A stretch of DNA of 64,000 bases from an uncultured Rikenellaceae bacterium (GTDB lineage: Bacteria > Bacteroidota > Bacteroidia > Bacteroidales > Rikenellaceae). The stretch covers positions 1-64,000 of the forward strand of contig CALVFY010000006.1 of the NCBI GenBank assembly GCA_944326945.1, in the 5' to 3' direction. A model generated the notes under the pieces. The model did no database searches, had not been told where the DNA came from, and was given only the letters and a program-made list of their open reading frames with translations. The translations under genes were made by a program, and so were the position numbers. Shown one piece after another: positions 23,011-32,729 of this stretch (position 1 is the first letter of the stretch; the number at the start of each line of letters is the position of its first letter).

Positions 23011-23278
23011 CCTTTCCATTTTTTTCAAAGCCACAACCCGGAATCACAACCGAATCCACCCCACATCCCTCACTCATCCAACCAACCCTAAGAGAACCCG
23101 AAACATCATCACACACATCTCATCACACTCACATCCACCCCACGATCAGTTGCAAATCCGATATTGTGCCTCAACATTTCAACATCCAACAATATTTCAC
23201 TATAACACGTTCCCACTTAAACCACCCTGTCTCAAAAAAACAAGTTTTTTCTCCAACACCCCCCAACACCAACCACCA
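23011..23278 (-). promoter_or_regulatory. Long G-rich 5' leader of the asnA-glnN-gltB-purF operon
   Basis: Between the predicted transcription start (about 23278) and the asnA ATG lie some 265 nt with no convincing gene. The transcript would be rich in G and U, with many GG runs and repeated GATG/GTGTG words. Near its 5' end an A6-C-TTG-T7 segment can fold into a small A/U hairpin. A 61-codon frame begins at 23116 and overlaps the asnA start, but it has no recognisable content. No known riboswitch is recognised. The length suggests a regulatory leader, which is inference. Confidence 0.4.
23253..23277 (-). other. Possible two-tetrad G-quadruplex motif at the 5' end of the asnA leader
   Basis: On the minus strand the tracts run GG-T-GG-TT-GG-TGTT-GGGGGG, four G-tracts with loops of 1, 2 and 4 nt, plus a further GG. 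The order GGTTGGTGTTGG resembles two-tetrad quadruplex formers. It would form the very first bases of the asnA operon mRNA. Confidence 0.45.
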
Positions 23279-23284
23279 ACACTG

Positions 23285-23317
23285 CAAATATATATATTTT
23301 TATTTCTTACCCCCAAA
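23285..23317 (-). promoter_or_regulatory. Promoter of the asnA-glnN-gltB-purF operon
   Basis: On the minus strand TTTG (23314-23317) is followed after 21 nt by TATATTTG (23285-23292), a good match to TTTG-N19..21-TAnnTTTG. The start of transcription is expected near 23278. Confidence 0.65.
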
Positions 23318-23694
23318 TTTTTTAGCATATATTTTCAAAATAAACATAAAAAATATCAAAATACCCCATAAAAATAAACACAAATCAACAAATAAAGACA
23401 AAAAACCACCTCACCCCCAAAAAAAACACACAAAACCGAACAAAAAAGGAAAATAAAACAACAGACAGCCAAATAACAACCAATATTACATTCATAACAC
23501 ATAAAAAAATACCCTTTATAACAAACAAAACATTTTTTTTCAAACCACCCTCCCGACAAAACAACACCATCATCCACATATTATATATAAATACTTTTTT
23601 CTCTATCCTGCAAAAAAGCACCGCATCATTTGTATAATTTATATTATAAATGAAAAATATTTAACAATTGTTTCTAATTAGCAAAAAAAGACAT
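23318..23694. other. Intergenic stretch nearly devoid of G on the + strand
   Basis: Together with the asnA leader this belongs to an 800-nt gene-free interval. Between 23341 and 23580 the + strand carries 7 G against about 60 C, the rest being A and T, with C-runs such as ACCCCC and long A-runs. No start codon with a sensible frame, no tRNA and no repeat unit is seen. The last 100 nt before the promoter of the giant gene are plain AT-rich DNA. I see no gene here. Confidence 0.6.
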
Positions 23695-23702
23695 ATATTT
23701 GT
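23695..23702 (+). promoter_or_regulatory. Candidate -7 element (TATATTTG) for the giant PLP/P-loop gene
   Basis: TATATTTG fits TAnnTTTG. It would start transcription near 23709 and leave a leader of about 120 nt before the ATG at 23832. A TTG lies about 23 nt upstream. Confidence 0.5.
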
Positions 23703-23831
23703 CCCCGAAGATGAAGTATTAAATTTCGGTAATAAATATTACATTTTACCAATACACCTCTCATCATCCGGAAAAAACAGACAAAATTCTGATAACCAAT
23801 ACATAAAAAATAATCACCAACGAAGAAAAAG

Positions 23832-26800
23832 ATGAAAATAGTCGGTGAACCCAAAGCATTTTTAAGCAACGAAGCGTTGCAATTGCTGGACCTCTACCGG
23901 TCACTGGGCGAACGAGCAGAGATATTTCTGCCTCGTCACATTTTCGATAACCTGACCAATTTCGTCAGCCTCTGCATGGAGGAACCAGACGATCCGGCCA
24001 AGCAACAGGCGGAGATCAACAAATATCTGCTCCGTTTCCGCGAAGATATTCCCGGATATGTGGACGTCTCGCTGATGCTGATCCCTCACAACAATTCGAA
24101 AGCTTTCGAGTTGAGTAACAAACGGGGGCGTTTCGTGCGAAAAATCGACCGATTGATCGACACCGATGGCACTACTGCCGAATTCAAAAAACTGTTACGC
24201 AACATTCGCGAAAGCCACGATCTGTCTGTCGGAACTCCTCCTGTCAACAACTATACGATCGACTTCATGAGTCAGCTCCAGTTGGGAGGACATGTACGCG
24301 ACCTTCGCAAATACCGTGACGTGATCGGTGTAACGGGAGATATCAACGAGGCCCACTGGAACTATATGATGGATACGCTCGAACAAATGATATCTCAGAG
24401 CACCCATTACACAACCAATGCGGAAAAAACAGACTTTTTAAATCGCAGTCGCTGGACGGTAAACTTCAAAGGACTCAACGGAATGATCCGTACCGTCGTA
24501 TCGGGTAATGCCGACAAGGCGGTCGAGTTACTCAAGGGCGACGTATTCAATGCAGCGTCAGTCGTGGTGATGGATTCGCCCTCGCCCGAGGAGTTATATG
24601 AACAGATGACGACCGACACCACCAGCATTTTCGTGGTAAAGGTACGCCACGCCCGCATCAACCACTATACAGGCGAACGGTGGTTCCCGTTACTCACTCG
24701 GCTGGTGATCGTAGACGACTCCAAAGAGTCACGCAGTTCAAACACCTCGCTGGTATTCTGCTTCCACAATGGCATAATCAATACCCTGAACAAGGTACAC
24801 ACCAAGAAACTGGGATCACCTGCCAACACTCAACTCAACCTGCGATTGATTCTGGAGAATGTCAATGCCTCCTATCTCACCGAATTTCGCGAAAAGATCG
24901 AAGCGCAGATCGAAACCTATTCGAAAGAGCTGGAACAGATGCTCTCTGAACAGACGGGCGATCCCTCGAATATCGAGAAGCGGATCACCCTATTCAAGCT
25001 GGATGCTTTCTCCCGTCAGGTGGTTCAGGACAAATATTCGCTCGAAAAACTGCGCGACTTCATCTTCTTCCTGGAGAACTGCCACAAGCAGGAGAACAAA
25101 CAGGTACAGACCCAGGAACTGATCGACGAGTTCGAAAAACGGATGAACAGCTATTTCTATGCCGGCAACCCAAATATCGACATCGTGACGATTCTCGAGG
25201 GCGGCGGCCGTAATCAGATCCGCACCTTCGGACAGTATCTGCGCCAAAAGCCGTTCAACAATCTGAACAGCAAGATCCGTTATGCCTGCCGGCTGATTCT
25301 GGACATCATTCCCAGCTGCTACGAACGCACGCTGAAGAATCATTTCCACAAAAATTTCGGAATCAATCTCTTCCTGGAGAAATATAAAGAGTATCTGACC
25401 AAAACGGGACGCGAAGCAGACAACAAGGGACGGTTCGAAAAATTCCTGATCGATCTGGGCATTCGCGACAAGTATTTCTCATTGGGCGAAGAGGATCGCG
25501 ACATCGTGAAGAATTTTCTGTCGGCGCTGGGCAATCTGGACCAGACCTCGGTATCAGATTCCGTACAGATGATTATCCGCGACCTGCTGTTCAATCCGAA
25601 CGGCCGGCCCAAACCTTATGTCATCTACAATGCGGTGCAGGCATGGGAATACAAGGATCTGCTGCCGGACGATCTGTTCGACATCAATCCGTTCGACATC
25701 GAGATCGAAAATCTGCCCGACGGACGTTTGGCCTACGACCGCCTGATCGACCGCCTGAAACGGATCAAATCGACCCTTTCGCTCTTCGACGACAGCGGTT
25801 CGTTGTGGGATCTGTTCTGCGAAAACACCACCATTCTGGTCAACGATCCGAACAATCCGACCGGTTACACCGATTTCAACAGCGAATCGATCAACGAATT
25901 CCTCCGCTTCTTAAACAGCAGCAAGATCACCCTCTTCCTCGACGAGGCTTATGCCGAGAGCGTGAAGATCGAAGATCCCGAGATGCCCAAATGGCGTACC
26001 ATCTCGCGCTATATCATGAACAACATCAACGCACAGAGTAAGATTCGTGCCATTTCATCGCTCTCCACGACCAAAAACCTGGCCGCCACCGGAGAGCGGC
26101 TCGGAGCCATCGCCACTACGCCGCAGGCCGCCCCGTTCGCTGAATTTGCCCGCCGTTGCAACAGTGCCGAACACGGTAACAACAACTCGCTGCTGATACT
26201 CAACAACTCTTTGGAAACCGCTCAAGTGGCCAAGAGTATCAAAGACCAGATGGAGGCCAAGTTACCTAAGAATGCATCGCGATCCAATATCAAGAAAGCG
26301 ATCGTGAACTTCATCAAGGAACAGATCGACAAGACCGAACGCAATAACCGCAAGAGTATTGCCAACCAGCTGCACAAGACAGCGGGATTTGAAGGATCCC
26401 CCCTCTATCTGTTCCTGTTGGATGAGTTGGTGGCGCTCGACAAGCTGGATGTGCTGGGTCTGCCCGACGACTTCAAATACAAGGACGAACCCTTCTTCTC
26501 CTACTACCAGAGCAAACTGGTAAGCAATCTCAATCGTTTCCGCGTCAACAAGAATTTCCGCAGCGAATCGCTCAAACGACTCTCGATGGCCAAACAAACG
26601 GCTGCCCGGTTGCTCGAAAAATTCGGTACGGATGCATTGGAGATCGTGGATTCGGACGGTTCGTATCTTTTCAACTTCCGGATCAAGGGCGGCGCTTCGT
26701 ATGCCGACATGCTCGCCTTCTGCGGTGCGTTGGCCGAAAACCGGGGAATCGCCACGGTGCCCTATCCCACGGGATTGGTGCGTTTCGCTGTTGGAGGCTT

Positions 26801-29800
26801 CATCCGTTCGGGCGCCGAGGGAATGAAAGTATTCTCGGCCGAAATCGAAGACGCATTCTCGATCTTTATCAAATACTGGCTTCAGTTCGCCGCCCTGCGT
26901 GCCGATACAGCCAATAAGGAGTTCAGTTCCCAGGACCTGCTGAACCGAATGTTCTCCGTTGGGAAAGACCAGGAATTCATCGACACGGTGATCGCCGACT
27001 ATGCCGCTTCGGCCCAATACCCGAAAGATAAGGCCCCCTCACTCCAGATCCGTGACGTGCGGTCGCTGTATCATGCATCCCCCGAGCGTAGTGGAGTGAC
27101 AATCACCACCATAGGCCGCTCGGCCAACTCTGTGATCGAGCTGCACGGAGACTTGATCGGATCGTGTCGCGACGTCTTCGAATTCATCCGCAGCCAGGCA
27201 TTCACCAAAATCTATGAGAATCTGCTGGCCCAGGTCTACAAACGGGTTCCGGCTCTCGCGGACATGGACTTCAACACCGTCTCGTCGCGTTACTCGAAGG
27301 CCGTCCTGTTGAAATACATCACCAACAAGAAGACCTTTCAGCCCAACCATCACGTGCTGGACAATCCCGAAGAGAAAAACATCATGCGCGAAGTGCTGAT
27401 CGAGATGGAAAATCTGCTCTTCTCGGACAGCAAAATGAAGATCCTGGCCATCAATGCTACGGGCGATTCGGCACTCGACAAAGCCAAACTCGAGGGTCTG
27501 AACTCGATCCTCAAGAAATATATCCGGGAGATCCTGCTCCATTTCAACCTTCCCTTCGAAAAGGAGAGTCTGGAGCCGAGCCGTCGCGAAATCATCCGTA
27601 CGGCTGGAGAGACCTTTACCGAGATCACGGGAATCCCGTTGAGCGAACTGAATCTCAATATCTGGGTAGACGAATATATCCGCAATCTGCGCGAACTACC
27701 CGAATTCCGTGAGATTCCGCTCTCGAGCAAAAGCATCGGATTCATCCAGGACGCCATCACGGCCGGTGTAAACAACTTCGCGGAGATCACCGACAAGATT
27801 CTCTATCTCTACCTGCTCAACAACGACAATTCGTTCTACCGGATGATCTGCGAACGGCTTCGCTACTTCAGCGACCGCATCGGAGAAACCGAGGACGGAG
27901 AGATCAAGATGTTCACCGAGGAGTTCGTGACCAGCATTCTGCCCGACCAGTTGCAGGAGATCAGCAATTACATCATGCGCAAACGCGATATCAAGATCGC
28001 CGAAAGCGAAATCTACTCCGTGGCTCGCCGTGTGGTACGGTTCTATATCAGTCTGGTGAAACGTACCAAGGGCACAGACTACTACAACCGATATGCCCAC
28101 ACAATGGTTCGTATCGTGGAGACCGCGTTCCGCAAACAAAACTCCAGCGTCAACGAGATGGTCCAACACGGCATCTCCCTCTACAAAGGTTTCGAAATGG
28201 AGAACAAGACCCTCGAAACCTTCGAAGGCGGCCGCATCAGCTGGATCAACGAACTGATGAGCAAATGCGGTGTGATCTCCTCCGAACAACCCGTACAGGA
28301 ACACACCCGTATCGTGACCGATGCCAAGAAACGCGAGTATCCTTTCCACAAGATCGATCGCGTGGAGTTGAAAAAACGCGAGGGAGAACCCGATCCGGAA
28401 TCACCCACGGACTACATACGCTGGATCAATCCGCGCCCCGAATCCGGATTCTTTACCGACCGACTGGCCCGATTCGTTGCCAACATGGACTCCGACGACT
28501 ATCGATGCAAGGTGGTTAAACACGGTATCGTTAAAGAGTTGGTCATCTTCCAGAAGGGTTACATGAAGTATCTGACGGACAACTATCGGCTCAATTATAC
28601 GGAAGATATCAGTCTGCACGATATCCGTAATTTCGTACCGGACGTTATCAGCCTGCTGGGTGCCCCCGAAAAGTTGATCTCCTTCCCGCAGATCGGCTAC
28701 TTCGATATCAAAGGTCCCGCCGGCAATATCAAGACGATTGTCACGCCTCTGAAGTCCGAGGCCGATTACTTCGGAGACGTAAAGAAACCCCGTCTGACGG
28801 TCATCAATGAAAAGGTGAAGGAGTTGGGTGGTATTCCACGCCACGGTTCTCTGTTCCTTGTGGAGGAGAACGACGGCAGTGTCTTCGTGGTGGAGATCTG
28901 CGGCGACAGCGGCGTGGGCAAGAGCGAAATGATCGCGGCATTCGTGCTCAAATGGATGAAAAACAATCTGGAAGGTATCCGCTCGGTGAAAATGATCGCC
29001 GGCGATATGTTCCACGAATTCCAGGATGCCGAGGGGAATCTCTACGGTATCGGTACCGAAGTGGGCGACTTTTCGCGTACCACGGATTTCGACCCGGATT
29101 ATATCAAATATTACAAATATCTTTTCGACACCAGTGCCGACAGCAATGTAGACGACCTCAATTCGCGGAGCACCGTGAGCGGCATGTGCGACATCACGAT
29201 GCCGTTCAAGATCGACATCATGCTCAGTGCCAGCAACTATGCCAAAGAAGAGGGAGGTATCACCCGCGTCGACAACCCGGAGAACTTCCTGCTCTACATC
29301 GATGCCCACGGCGAACGCAAGGAGAAGGCTACCAGTCAGGACGGCCCCAACTTCCAACGGACACTCAAACGCTACACGGCCGACAAGAACATCGTGGACG
29401 TGATCGCACGTCACGGCAACTACCTGGACGATGTGCTCGACTGGGACTGGGTGGCCTCCGAGAAGAAGTATTATCTCGCTTCGTCATTCAAGCTGCTCGA
29501 CAAGATCGACATCGTCGAAATCGTCAAGAAAATCTTCGTTGGCAAGCAATTCAGGGCTAATGACATCCTCTATGCGATCCGCGACGTCGCTTTCGACATG
29601 ATCCAAAACCGATTCATTGCCACCGTAGTCTACCACGAAGGGGAAACGGAGATCCAAACCCAAATGAAGATCGATCGTAGGATATTCAGTTCGATCTTCG
29701 ATTCGCTGGCCTCCACTCCGGGCGGACAGCCGTTCATCGCCGAAGAGGGACAAGTAGAGTGTGTTCGCCACCTGATCGACTGCCTGCGCGGCGGCAAAGA

Positions 29801-30548
29801 TGGCAAAGGGAAGGCCCGTCTGATCCAATGCGGCGTACTTTCCACCGAAATCGGCAAGAAAGGACGCGAAATCACCGGTCCCCAGAAGGCCGCCGCTGCT
29901 CTTAAACAATTGATCCAGGAGGTACGCACCAGCAAACCCGAAATTAACGAAGGCAAGATCAAGGTGAAACGACTGATCAACGAGAAGTATCACCATATCT
30001 TCAACGGGAACATGAACAGCAGCGAATTATGGCGTTACAACTTCTACCTCTATCAGTTGGAGAATATGCGCAAAGCCGATCTGCGCCGTATGGACAACAA
30101 GAGCAAGAAGGTGGATATCAGCAATCTGGTGGATTTCACCCCCAGCGACCGCAACAAAGAATTCTCGCCGCTGTTGGTGACCCCCAATCTGAATATCGAA
30201 CTTACCAGTTTCGGAGAAACATTCGAAGAGTTGATGAGTCTGCCGAACTATCCCGATTTTGCAGAAGAATTCGCTGCCCGCACGAGCAAACTCTACGTGG
30301 CAGAAGGGTACAGCGAAGAGACCAATATCAACAATATGATCGTTCAATTGTTGCTCATGGAAGATTATATCTCTCCGGACGACATCGCCCGCGGCAGTGT
30401 GATCGAAAAAGTCAATCGAGAAACGATCGCCGCAGCCAAATATGCCGTAGTACAGTTCCTCTCTTCGCAAAAGACAGAAGCCGCCAAAGCTCCGGCTCCC
30501 AAAGCGGTCACCTCTCGTAATGTGCAATCCAAGGCAGGGAAAAAATAG
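23832..30548 (+). CDS. Giant 2238-residue protein: fold-type-I PLP (aminotransferase-like) module plus HPrK-like P-loop module
   Basis: I recognise two catalytic modules in an otherwise unfamiliar chain. (1) A class I/II aminotransferase core at about residues 640-1010: NDPNNPTG (671-678), DEAY (704-707), TKNLAATGERLG with the likely PLP-lysine Lys748 and Arg756 at the AspC-like spacing, and GLVRFAVGG with Arg984 where the substrate-carboxylate Arg is expected. (2) A P-loop ATPase/kinase at about 1600-2000: Walker A GDSGVGKSE (1691-1699), nearly identical to HPr kinase/phosphorylase, IAGDMF (Asp1725), and LLYID (Asp1824) as a Walker B candidate. The first 600 residues and 1020-1600 are mostly helical, without recognised domains or membrane segments. 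The tail is an Ala/Pro/Lys linker. It has its own promoter and terminator, and codon use like its neighbours. Substrate and role are unknown. Confidence 0.85.
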   Translation: MKIVGEPKAFLSNEALQLLDLYRSLGERAEIFLPRHIFDNLTNFVSLCMEEPDDPAKQQAEINKYLLRFREDIPGYVDVSLMLIPHNNSKAFELSNKRGRFVRKIDRLIDTDGTTAEFKKLLRNIRESHDLSVGTPPVNNYTIDFMSQLQLGGHVRDLRKYRDVIGVTGDINEAHWNYMMDTLEQMISQSTHYTTNAEKTDFLNRSRWTVNFKGLNGMIRTVVSGNADKAVELLKGDVFNAASVVVMDSPSPEELYEQMTTDTTSIFVVKVRHARINHYTGERWFPLLTRLVIVDDSKESRSSNTSLVFCFHNGIINTLNKVHTKKLGSPANTQLNLRLILENVNASYLTEFREKIEAQIETYSKELEQMLSEQTGDPSNIEKRITLFKLDAFSRQVVQDKYSLEKLRDFIFFLENCHKQENKQVQTQELIDEFEKRMNSYFYAGNPNIDIVTILEGGGRNQIRTFGQYLRQKPFNNLNSKIRYACRLILDIIPSCYERTLKNHFHKNFGINLFLEKYKEYLTKTGREADNKGRFEKFLIDLGIRDKYFSLGEEDRDIVKNFLSALGNLDQTSVSDSVQMIIRDLLFNPNGRPKPYVIYNAVQAWEYKDLLPDDLFDINPFDIEIENLPDGRLAYDRLIDRLKRIKSTLSLFDDSGSLWDLFCENTTILVNDPNNPTGYTDFNSESINEFLRFLNSSKITLFLDEAYAESVKIEDPEMPKWRTISRYIMNNINAQSKIRAISSLSTTKNLAATGERLGAIATTPQAAPFAEFARRCNSAEHGNNNSLLILNNSLETAQVAKSIKDQMEAKLPKNASRSNIKKAIVNFIKEQIDKTERNNRKSIANQLHKTAGFEGSPLYLFLLDELVALDKLDVLGLPDDFKYKDEPFFSYYQSKLVSNLNRFRVNKNFRSESLKRLSMAKQTAARLLEKFGTDALEIVDSDGSYLFNFRIKGGASYADMLAFCGALAENRGIATVPYPTGLVRFAVGGFIRSGAEGMKVFSAEIEDAFSIFIKYWLQFAALRADTANKEFSSQDLLNRMFSVGKDQEFIDTVIADYAASAQYPKDKAPSLQIRDVRSLYHASPERSGVTITTIGRSANSVIELHGDLIGSCRDVFEFIRSQAFTKIYENLLAQVYKRVPALADMDFNTVSSRYSKAVLLKYITNKKTFQPNHHVLDNPEEKNIMREVLIEMENLLFSDSKMKILAINATGDSALDKAKLEGLNSILKKYIREILLHFNLPFEKESLEPSRREIIRTAGETFTEITGIPLSELNLNIWVDEYIRNLRELPEFREIPLSSKSIGFIQDAITAGVNNFAEITDKILYLYLLNNDNSFYRMICERLRYFSDRIGETEDGEIKMFTEEFVTSILPDQLQEISNYIMRKRDIKIAESEIYSVARRVVRFYISLVKRTKGTDYYNRYAHTMVRIVETAFRKQNSSVNEMVQHGISLYKGFEMENKTLETFEGGRISWINELMSKCGVISSEQPVQEHTRIVTDAKKREYPFHKIDRVELKKREGEPDPESPTDYIRWINPRPESGFFTDRLARFVANMDSDDYRCKVVKHGIVKELVIFQKGYMKYLTDNYRLNYTEDISLHDIRNFVPDVISLLGAPEKLISFPQIGYFDIKGPAGNIKTIVTPLKSEADYFGDVKKPRLTVINEKVKELGGIPRHGSLFLVEENDGSVFVVEICGDSGVGKSEMIAAFVLKWMKNNLEGIRSVKMIAGDMFHEFQDAEGNLYGIGTEVGDFSRTTDFDPDYIKYYKYLFDTSADSNVDDLNSRSTVSGMCDITMPFKIDIMLSASNYAKEEGGITRVDNPENFLLYIDAHGERKEKATSQDGPNFQRTLKRYTADKNIVDVIARHGNYLDDVLDWDWVASEKKYYLASSFKLLDKIDIVEIVKKIFVGKQFRANDILYAIRDVAFDMIQNRFIATVVYHEGETEIQTQMKIDRRIFSSIFDSLASTPGGQPFIAEEGQVECVRHLIDCLRGGKDGKGKARLIQCGVLSTEIGKKGREITGPQKAAAALKQLIQEVRTSKPEINEGKIKVKRLINEKYHHIFNGNMNSSELWRYNFYLYQLENMRKADLRRMDNKSKKVDISNLVDFTPSDRNKEFSPLLVTPNLNIELTSFGETFEELMSLPNYPDFAEEFAARTSKLYVAEGYSEETNINNMIVQLLLMEDYISPDDIARGSVIEKVNRETIAAAKYAVVQFLSSQKTEAAKAPAPKAVTSRNVQSKAGKK

Positions 30549-30577
30549 CTCTCTGCACTGACAAATAATCAGATAAT

Positions 30578-30613
30578 GAGCCGTACCTAATTGAATGGTA
30601 CGGCTCGTTTTTT
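30578..30613 (+). terminator. Intrinsic terminator of the giant gene
   Basis: The perfect 10-bp stem GAGCCGTACC/GGTACGGCTC (30578-30587 and 30597-30606) has a 9-nt loop followed by GTTTTTTG. It lies 29 nt after the stop at 30548. Confidence 0.92.
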
Positions 30614-30683
30614 GTTATCCTAAACAAAAAAATTATTATTTTTACGAACTACACTACCGCTAATCATCTAAGACCACGAATCA

Positions 30684-31121
30684 ATGCGAACCATCAAACG
30701 AATGAAACTGGTGCAAAATGTACTATGTCTGGTAGCTATTGCCGCCTATCTGTTCGGTCATCAAATCGTGGGACAGACAGGAATAGACATTCTCCGATAT
30801 ATGTTTACGGGCGAAGAAGAGGAAAGCATAATCGAAATACTCAAAACGATAGCTCTTATTTCCGGTTGCACACTGGTACTGGCTATGAATCTAATCAGTC
30901 TGATCACCGAAGGAAAAGGAATAGATCTGCTACGGAGTATTTTCTCGATCTATGCCATGTGGACACTGTTTCATTTCATCGTCATGCTGCTGGTCGCCGG
31001 CTCCCAAAAAGGATTGGCAAGTTCTTTGGGCGGAGGATTCTTTTTAGCCCAGATCTCCGTCTTGTGCATTTTTTTACTCTCCTTGCAGATGATCAAAATA
31101 AAAAAAGCGAATCGTGCATAG
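30684..31121 (+). CDS. Four-helix integral membrane protein, hypothetical
   Basis: A 145-residue protein with four predicted membrane helices: VLCLVAIAAYLFG, ILKTIALISGCTLVLAMNLI, IFSIYAMWTLFHFIVMLLV and FFLAQISVLCIFLLSLQMI. An acidic loop (GEEEESI) separates the first two. A Met six codons in (30702) is an alternative start. No family is recognised. It is monocistronic, behind the terminator of the giant gene. A weak TATTTTTA box lies upstream. Confidence 0.6.
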   Translation: MRTIKRMKLVQNVLCLVAIAAYLFGHQIVGQTGIDILRYMFTGEEEESIIEILKTIALISGCTLVLAMNLISLITEGKGIDLLRSIFSIYAMWTLFHFIVMLLVAGSQKGLASSLGGGFFLAQISVLCIFLLSLQMIKIKKANRA

Positions 31122-31135
31122 GCACCACTCGCTTT
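31104..31135. terminator. Terminator-like hairpin between convergent genes
   Basis: AAAGCGA (31104-31110) pairs with TCGCTTT (31129-31135), and an inner GTGC/GCAC extends the stem. It overlaps the stop codon at 31121 and is preceded by an A-run, favouring termination of the minus-strand operon. Confidence 0.5.
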
Positions 31136-31162
31136 AGCATTCATCATTCCGATCTCAGAGAA

Positions 31163-31465
31163 TCAAATGCCCGTCTCTGATTCGGAATCGATCTCCTCCT
31201 GCACCGTTTTTTCCCGACGGAAAAGCGACAAGGCAGACTGGAATCCACTATAGGCAGAGCGAATCAACGCTTGCAGATTTTCCATCTTCTGAGTCACCAC
31301 TCCGGTCACATAACCGATCGTAAACATTCCTCTGAATCGGCTCCATTCCCGAACAAGCTCCTCCTCCCGGGCCTCAATCATCCAATCGAGACGTTCTCGC
31401 TCACTTCTCAATTCGGTGAGCGAACCGAGTCGATCGTAACGTCTCTTATTTAGGGTCTCCTTCAT
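31163..31465 (-). CDS. Hypothetical protein, third gene of the YtxH/holin-like operon
   Basis: A 100-residue protein with a charged N-terminal helix likely to form a coiled coil (LTELRSERERLDWMIEAREEELV). A moderately hydrophobic stretch (MFTIGYVTGVV) and an acidic tail (EEIDSESETGI) follow. It overlaps the preceding holin-like gene by 20 nt (31446-31465), so it is read from the same message. Bacteroidetes often have an unnamed short protein in this position. Function unknown. Confidence 0.65.
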   Translation of the reverse strand: MKETLNKRRYDRLGSLTELRSERERLDWMIEAREEELVREWSRFRGMFTIGYVTGVVTQKMENLQALIRSAYSGFQSALSLFRREKTVQEEIDSESETGI

Positions 31466-32089: not shown

Positions 32090-32210
32090 TTCGATTCCAA
32101 AACAGCTTTTCCTCTCCGATAGAACCATCCGCAGGAGAATCCTCCAAAAAATCTCGATCCAGAATTAGGTGATCTACCCCAATTTGACTATCTTTATCCG
32201 TTCGTTTTCC

Positions 32211-32729
32211 ATGTCAGAACTTCGTTCCCATAGCGTAGCTTTCTCCGGCCATCGCACTTTCAAAATGCGCGATGACACGCTCTTTTCCCTCTCATCGGCA
32301 GAGGATTCAATCGCCTCCCGTCTGGATAAACAACTCGATCTGCTTTTCCAAAAAGGATACCGGATATTTTTATGCGGCATGGCAGAAGGGTTCGATCTGG
32401 AAGCGGCCGAAGCTGTTCTCAGACTAAAAGCTCGCAACAGAAACACCCGGCCCCCCATCCAACTACATGCCGTCATTCCCTATCCCCGACAGGCTGAACG
32501 TTTCTCCCCTGCCGATCGAATGCGTTATCGTTCGATTCTGGATCAGACAGACCAATGCATTCTACTCTCTCCGGCCTACCATCCAGGATGTTTCCACGTA
32601 CGAAACGACTACCTGATAGACCATGCCTCCCTGCTTCTTTGCTATTACAACGGCTCTAAAGGCGGCACTCAATACACCGTAAGACGTGCTCTCAAAAAGG
32701 GACTTTCCATCAGCAATCTCTATCCCTAA
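32211..32729 (+). CDS. SLOG-fold (DUF1273/YpsA-like) protein
   Basis: A 172-residue Rossmann-like protein. AFSGHRTF opens the fold, FLCGMAEGFDLEAAEAVL supplies the glycine-rich nucleotide-binding turn, HAVIPYP follows, and LLLCYYNGSKGGTQYTVRRA carries the SGGT-like second motif. This is the SLOG superfamily pattern, whose members bind nucleotides or nucleotide derivatives; several act in defence or signalling. The start at 32211 (MSELRSH) is chosen over a frame extension to 32169 that adds unrelated residues. No partner gene is adjacent. Specific role unknown. Confidence 0.82.
   Translation: MSELRSHSVAFSGHRTFKMRDDTLFSLSSAEDSIASRLDKQLDLLFQKGYRIFLCGMAEGFDLEAAEAVLRLKARNRNTRPPIQLHAVIPYPRQAERFSPADRMRYRSILDQTDQCILLSPAYHPGCFHVRNDYLIDHASLLLCYYNGSKGGTQYTVRRALKKGLSISNLYP

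Follow-up and report, generated by a model that had tools for sequence, protein, structure and literature searches.

The locus and its features

The window analysed here is a stretch of 64,000 nucleotides from an uncultured Rikenellaceae bacterium with an Alistipes-related genome (GCA_944326945.1, contig CALVFY010000006.1, positions 1-64,000, forward strand). The gene of interest encodes a giant protein, in which an aminotransferase-like part and a module of predicted phosphoenolpyruvate carboxykinase (PEPCK) fold are joined in one chain. The open reading frame (ORF) was re-read from the window, and its extent, as well as all motifs located in a preliminary description of the sequence (NPTG, DEAY, Lys748, Arg756, Arg984, and GDSGVGKSE), were found at the residues given there. 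Conservation was counted in 88 aligned rows, chosen for spread from several homologue searches and including the window protein. The roles named below for the residues binding pyridoxal phosphate (PLP) or substrate (N675, D704, Y707, K748, R756, and R984), and for the YxGEMKK, HCS, P-loop, GDD, and N-T-R residues of PEPCK, are those that we take them to have in the known enzymes. The features are:

23832..30548, + strand: giant fusion gene, whole (ATG start, 2238 amino acids; full-length homologues)
24054..26900, + strand: residues 75-1023, predicted aminotransferase fold (fold type I) interrupted by long insertions
25824..26225, + strand: Pfam Aminotran_1_2 match, residues 665-798 (E 3.3e-11)
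25854..25865, + strand: NPTG 675-678, PLP-site Asn motif (N675, P676, and G678 each 88/88; T677 not counted)
25941..25952, + strand: DEAY 704-707, predicted PLP-ring Asp and Tyr (D704, A706, and Y707 each 88/88)
26073..26075, + strand: Lys748, predicted PLP Schiff-base lysine (88/88)
26097..26099, + strand: Arg756, predicted PLP-phosphate Arg (88/88)
26781..26783, + strand: Arg984, predicted substrate alpha-carboxylate Arg (88/88)
26901..28175, + strand: mostly helical linker, residues 1024-1448 (14% invariant columns)
28176..29939, + strand: predicted PEPCK-fold module, residues 1449-2036
28767..28787, + strand: YFGDVKK 1646-1652, paired by hhalign with Y-x-G-E-M-K-K of ATP-PEPCK (Y1646, K1651, and K1652 88/88)
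28842..28844, + strand: His1671, paired by hhalign with the metal-site His of PEPCK (88/88)
28902..28928, + strand: Walker A GDSGVGKSE 1691-1699, paired by hhalign (all 88/88 except V1695)
29004..29006, + strand: Asp1725, the acidic residue still kept from the GDD metal motif of PEPCK (88/88)
29166..29168, + strand: Arg1779 (in NSRST), paired by hhalign, via the stand-alone family described below, with the N-T-R Arg of ATP-PEPCK (88/88)
29940..30545, + strand: helical C-terminal part, residues 2037-2238

Occurrence as a single chain

The whole-length search returned 347 proteins. Among the 120 matches listed, the window protein included, 115 were at least 2199 amino acids long and five were 1771-2117, and the other 119 were 57-87% identical to the window protein. 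The second search, started from an alignment of 16 members, returned 325 proteins, and the 40 new ones among the matches listed were all 2200-2229 amino acids long. Altogether, 154 of the 159 distinct homologues among the matches listed had at least 2199 amino acids. Identity went down to 49% in the named loci and was approximately 50-60% between families.

The architecture was surveyed in samples of the order (295 genomes), the family (120 genomes), and the phylum (395 genomes). The giant was found in 17 genomes of the order sample (16 whole and one cut by a contig end), and genome G411 of that sample had a C-terminal piece only. In the family sample, 29 genomes and 12 of the 22 genera had it (25 whole, four in pieces or cut), and it was whole in three genomes of the phylum sample, the window genome among them. 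Named carriers were Alistipes, Mucinivorans, Marinilabilia, Carboxylicivirga, Thermophagus, and Odoribacter, and one whole copy lies on a complete chromosome (L007, NZ_CP045651.1). Because the homologues are full length across the searches and the genome samples, this is a single gene rather than two joined ones, and an assembly or annotation artefact that erroneously fused two genes was rejected as practically negligible. The two parts co-occur in full-length homologues, and the reading of the preliminary description, namely that one chain carries both a PLP-type aminotransferase and a P-loop module, is borne out by the profile match, the predicted folds, and these homologues.

Source annotations of the giant in Alistipes and Odoribacter were mostly "aminotransferase" or "hypothetical protein". 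Two homologues (P0046 and P0120) were misnamed in their sources, as "GTP-binding protein YsxC" and "RNase P/RNase MRP subunit p29".

The aminotransferase part

The Pfam Aminotran_1_2 profile (PF00155) matched at 43.4 bits (cut-off 19.7), spanning profile positions 147-270 of 361 only. The PLP-site and substrate residues, together with the fold of the predicted model, likewise place this part in PF00155. Since the PLP-site and Walker A residues, V1695 apart, are identical in 88/88 rows, the motifs stand above chance; E705 of DEAY was listed as invariant in another alignment. The PLP fold anticipated for residues 640-1010 was recovered in the model, but not its boundaries, the fold being spread over residues ~75-1023.

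NCBIfam aminotransferase matches were weak, all far under their cut-offs. In the sequence searches of solved structures, low E-values were obtained for the aminotransferase part only, the best being ACC synthase (E 1.3e-4), and, by structure and by profile, the N-terminal half was best matched by broad-specificity and tyrosine-type aminotransferases. When this half was compared by hhalign with aminotransferase ORFs of the own genome, only L095 matched (probability 89, residues 667-776), wrong frames having been taken in several loci.

The PEPCK-like module

In the model, residues 1449-2036 match the entire PEPCK fold, N-domain included. By hhalign the module pairs directly with four motifs of ATP-PEPCK (YxGEMKK, HCS, P-loop, and GDD), and Y1646, K1651, K1652, H1671, K1697, S1698, D1725, and R1779 are invariant in 88/88 rows, while V1695 of the Walker A motif is V in 82/88. 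The profiles for the comparison were built from 19/20 loci for ATP-PEPCK and 10/15 loci for HPr kinase (HPrK), and gave E 4.1e-5 (148 columns) and E 1.7e-4 (61 columns), respectively. This difference is slight, and the module was assigned to PEPCK over HPrK because of the modelled fold and the upstream Y-x-G-x-x-K-K motif. The earlier term for the P-loop, "HPrK/PEPCK type", was therefore right in outline and can be narrowed: the module is a whole PEPCK fold in the model and is slightly nearer to ATP-PEPCK by profile. According to a review (PMC8100219), PEPCKs use ATP, GTP, or pyrophosphate (PPi), the PPi type being unrelated to the others.

Curated libraries gave no PEPCK model for the giant, in Pfam at E ≤1 or in NCBIfam at E ≤10, and the Pfam scan gave no match for the P-loop part. 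The sequence searches of solved structures returned nothing convincing for this part either. Neither an HPrK nor a PPi-PEPCK entry was among the Foldseek matches listed, which is no proof of absence.

As to HPr kinase, the Walker A motif GDSGVGKSE conforms to the GxSGxGKSE pattern of that enzyme. Hpr_kinase_C (PF07475) had no match in the whole genome, window included, and was not listed for the giant protein. Membership in the HPr kinases was rejected on these grounds; the profile comparison by itself would leave the question undecided. The earlier opinion that a true HPr kinase was unlikely proved right in outline. As a separate observation, HPrK-type proteins scored over the cut-off in 110/148 genomes of the Bacteroidota phylum sample, the window genome having none.

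Stand-alone relatives and ordinary PEPCK

The closest sequence relatives found for giant residues ~1540-1835, plus a tail at ~1992-2030, are stand-alone proteins of ~577 amino acids (hhalign E 1.1e-24, 280 columns). This family had 5975 matches among 7996 candidates scored, with no precomputed Pfam domain among the 120 matches listed. Its named rows are mostly from Dysgonomonas, many being called phosphoenolpyruvate carboxykinase and some hypothetical protein. Against HPr kinase, the family profile gave probability 90.6 and E 1.3e-6.

In the order sample, six genomes carried the family, two of these having a second copy, and the giant was absent from all six; with 17 and six carriers, chance alone would also seldom put both in one genome. 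Ordinary ATP-PEPCK was present in 2/6 of these carriers versus 246/295 genomes overall (p 0.008), although the six fall in four families and hence are not independent, and GTP-type PEPCK was found in 0/5 tested (G437 left out). Two of the seven stand-alone genes directly precede a gene for phosphoenolpyruvate (PEP) carboxylase on the same strand (L049:9446-11176 before L049:6648-9287, and L051:9291-11027 before L051:6537-9173); different genes lie beside the remaining five (10 neighbour proteins scanned). This adjacency and the mostly absent ordinary PEPCK support the view that the module acts at the PEP/oxaloacetate node, and the stand-alone family is a candidate divergent, non-orthologous PEPCK.

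The giant as a replacement of ordinary PEPCK was considered and rejected: PF01293 was found in 13/17 carriers versus 246/295 genomes overall (p 0.50). With G062 and G345 added, 15/19 carriers had PF01293, and one more, G513, had the GTP type.

Gene neighbourhood, promoter and terminator

For the neighbour comparison, 47 sequences were taken. The stand-alone loci were left out, as were L001 and L045, which duplicate the window; among those included, at least L046-L048 seem to repeat other loci of the set. L032 did not join, so that 46 sequences were compared, many of them on short contigs and 34 with ORFs on both sides. In L032, the script had kept a longer, overlapping minus-strand frame (2642 codons) instead of that of the giant; this frame is probably open on the antisense strand by chance.

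No widely shared neighbour family was seen, the maximum anywhere in the flank being 7/46. Within two ORFs of the giant gene, the commonest families reached 6/46 each and were each confined to one lineage. Two families reach distant lineages (five and four sequences), at no fixed position. A conserved gene partner was accordingly rejected, no family standing at a fixed place across lineages, and the suggestion that the gene lacks a cognate partner is supported.

In the window, the giant gene is divergent from asnA (aspartate-ammonia ligase), a type III glutamine synthetase, and glutamate synthase; this context is suggestive but local to the window. Directly downstream lies a small ORF (30684-31121, 145 amino acids, hydrophobic by eye), which had no Pfam match at E 1e-5. 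Further on, positions 32169-32729 encode a YpsA-type SLOG-family protein (PF06908).

The gene had also been credited with its own promoter and terminator, and this was not supported. In 23035-31200, six promoter-like matches (shuffle mean 8.7) and nine terminator-like matches (shuffle mean 9.7) were counted, none of either kind on the + strand of the upstream gap. A Bacteroidales-type promoter pattern with a presumed consensus matched once upstream of the giant, on the - strand.

Proposed function and alternatives

We tentatively propose, at somewhat less than an even chance, that the fusion interconverts aspartate and PEP via oxaloacetate. Oxaloacetate would be the intermediate shared by the two parts, which makes this the simplest reading of the pair. 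Lys748 would carry PLP and transaminate aspartate with 2-oxoglutarate, and the oxaloacetate formed would be handed from the aminotransferase site to the PEPCK-type site. There, the metal-nucleotide site formed by K1651, K1652, H1671, the Walker A motif, and R1779 would decarboxylate and phosphorylate it to PEP; in the reverse direction, CO2 might instead be fixed into aspartate. The inserted and linking helical segments may keep both sites close together, and the unstable oxaloacetate would then not have to be released. In its fullest form, an aspartate-oxaloacetate-PEP metabolon in one polypeptide, in which a new PEPCK lineage with its own aminotransferase channels oxaloacetate, the proposal is rather doubtful.

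The module departs from PEPCK at two points. One Asp of the GDD motif is lost, with G1724 or M1726 in its place by alignment path, while D1725 is kept. For the Arg expected to bind the oxaloacetate carboxylate there are several candidates: R1535, which is R, K, or L in 57, 27, and 4 of 88 rows, R1493 (87/88), and R1544 (88/88). Both would suit an idea close to that of the preliminary description: the C-terminal module would be another kinase within the broader PEPCK/HPrK fold group and use ATP to phosphorylate a small molecule or a protein residue, with the PLP part producing or modifying an amino acid. Such a kinase would also agree with the alignment of the HGS-preceded Walker A motif with HPr kinase, in the giant as well as in the stand-alone family, and with the ordinary PEPCK present in the same genome. 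The PEPCK traits outside the P-loop (the Y-x-G-x-x-K-K motif, the modelled N-domain, and Arg1779), the unmatched HPrK profile, and the PEP carboxylase beside stand-alone relatives speak the other way, and we consider this kinase unlikely.

The pairing might instead serve another amino acid (for example glutamate, alanine, or an aromatic one) in a bifunctional enzyme that does not hand over oxaloacetate, the fusion co-regulating nitrogen and carbon flow. The best matches of the N-terminal half to broad-specificity and tyrosine-type aminotransferases are in line with this; nothing direct opposes it, the shared oxaloacetate favouring aspartate as simplest, and we judge it improbable to a similar degree. 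A metabolite-sensing scaffold, where both domains bind ligands without turnover and the helical parts relay a signal, would account for most of the chain lying outside the matched cores (378 and 377 of 2238 residues aligned), for the lost acidic metal-site residue, and for the 11 other PF00155 matches in the window genome beside its ordinary PEPCK. Dead enzymes seldom keep catalytic-type lysines, and Lys748 and the Walker A Lys1697 are invariant in every row, which makes a scaffold more improbable still.

Should the metabolon exist, these Bacteroidota would make sugar precursors from aspartate, or fix CO2 into aspartate, directly. Enzymes of central carbon metabolism tend to be small, separate proteins. 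If aspartate-PEP interconversion is its function, the giant chain would lend itself naturally to testing whether oxaloacetate is channelled, and would represent a PEPCK lineage missed by the profile libraries tried. It occurs in some members of the common gut genera Alistipes and Odoribacter, and it is experimentally simple, being a single gene with no obvious partner.

Comparison with known systems

Both enzyme kinds are known. In a literature search (titles and abstract openings), the fusion, its size, and the putative divergent PEPCK lineage were not found described, in keeping with the preliminary description, which knew of no enzyme joining the two parts. With fold-type I aminotransferases (PF00155), the giant shares the modelled fold, NPxG, DxxY, the Lys, the phosphate Arg, and the C-terminal Arg; it differs in that insertions hundreds of residues long interrupt its core and that it is fused to ~1,200 further residues. 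HPr kinase/phosphorylase (PF07475) has in common with it the Walker A GDSGxGKSE with an H-G before it, but is not known to have the KK motif or the N-domain of the giant module. The stand-alone family has a quarter of its length, no aminotransferase part, and no counterpart to the stretch after ~1835, and keeps both Asp of the DD motif in 7/7 rows. PEPCK (PF01293/PF00821) resembles the giant in the modelled fold of both domains and in the set of Y-x-G-x-x-K-K, His, P-loop, and Arg motifs, whereas the giant has no curated profile match, has lost one Asp of GDD, and carries a fused aminotransferase.

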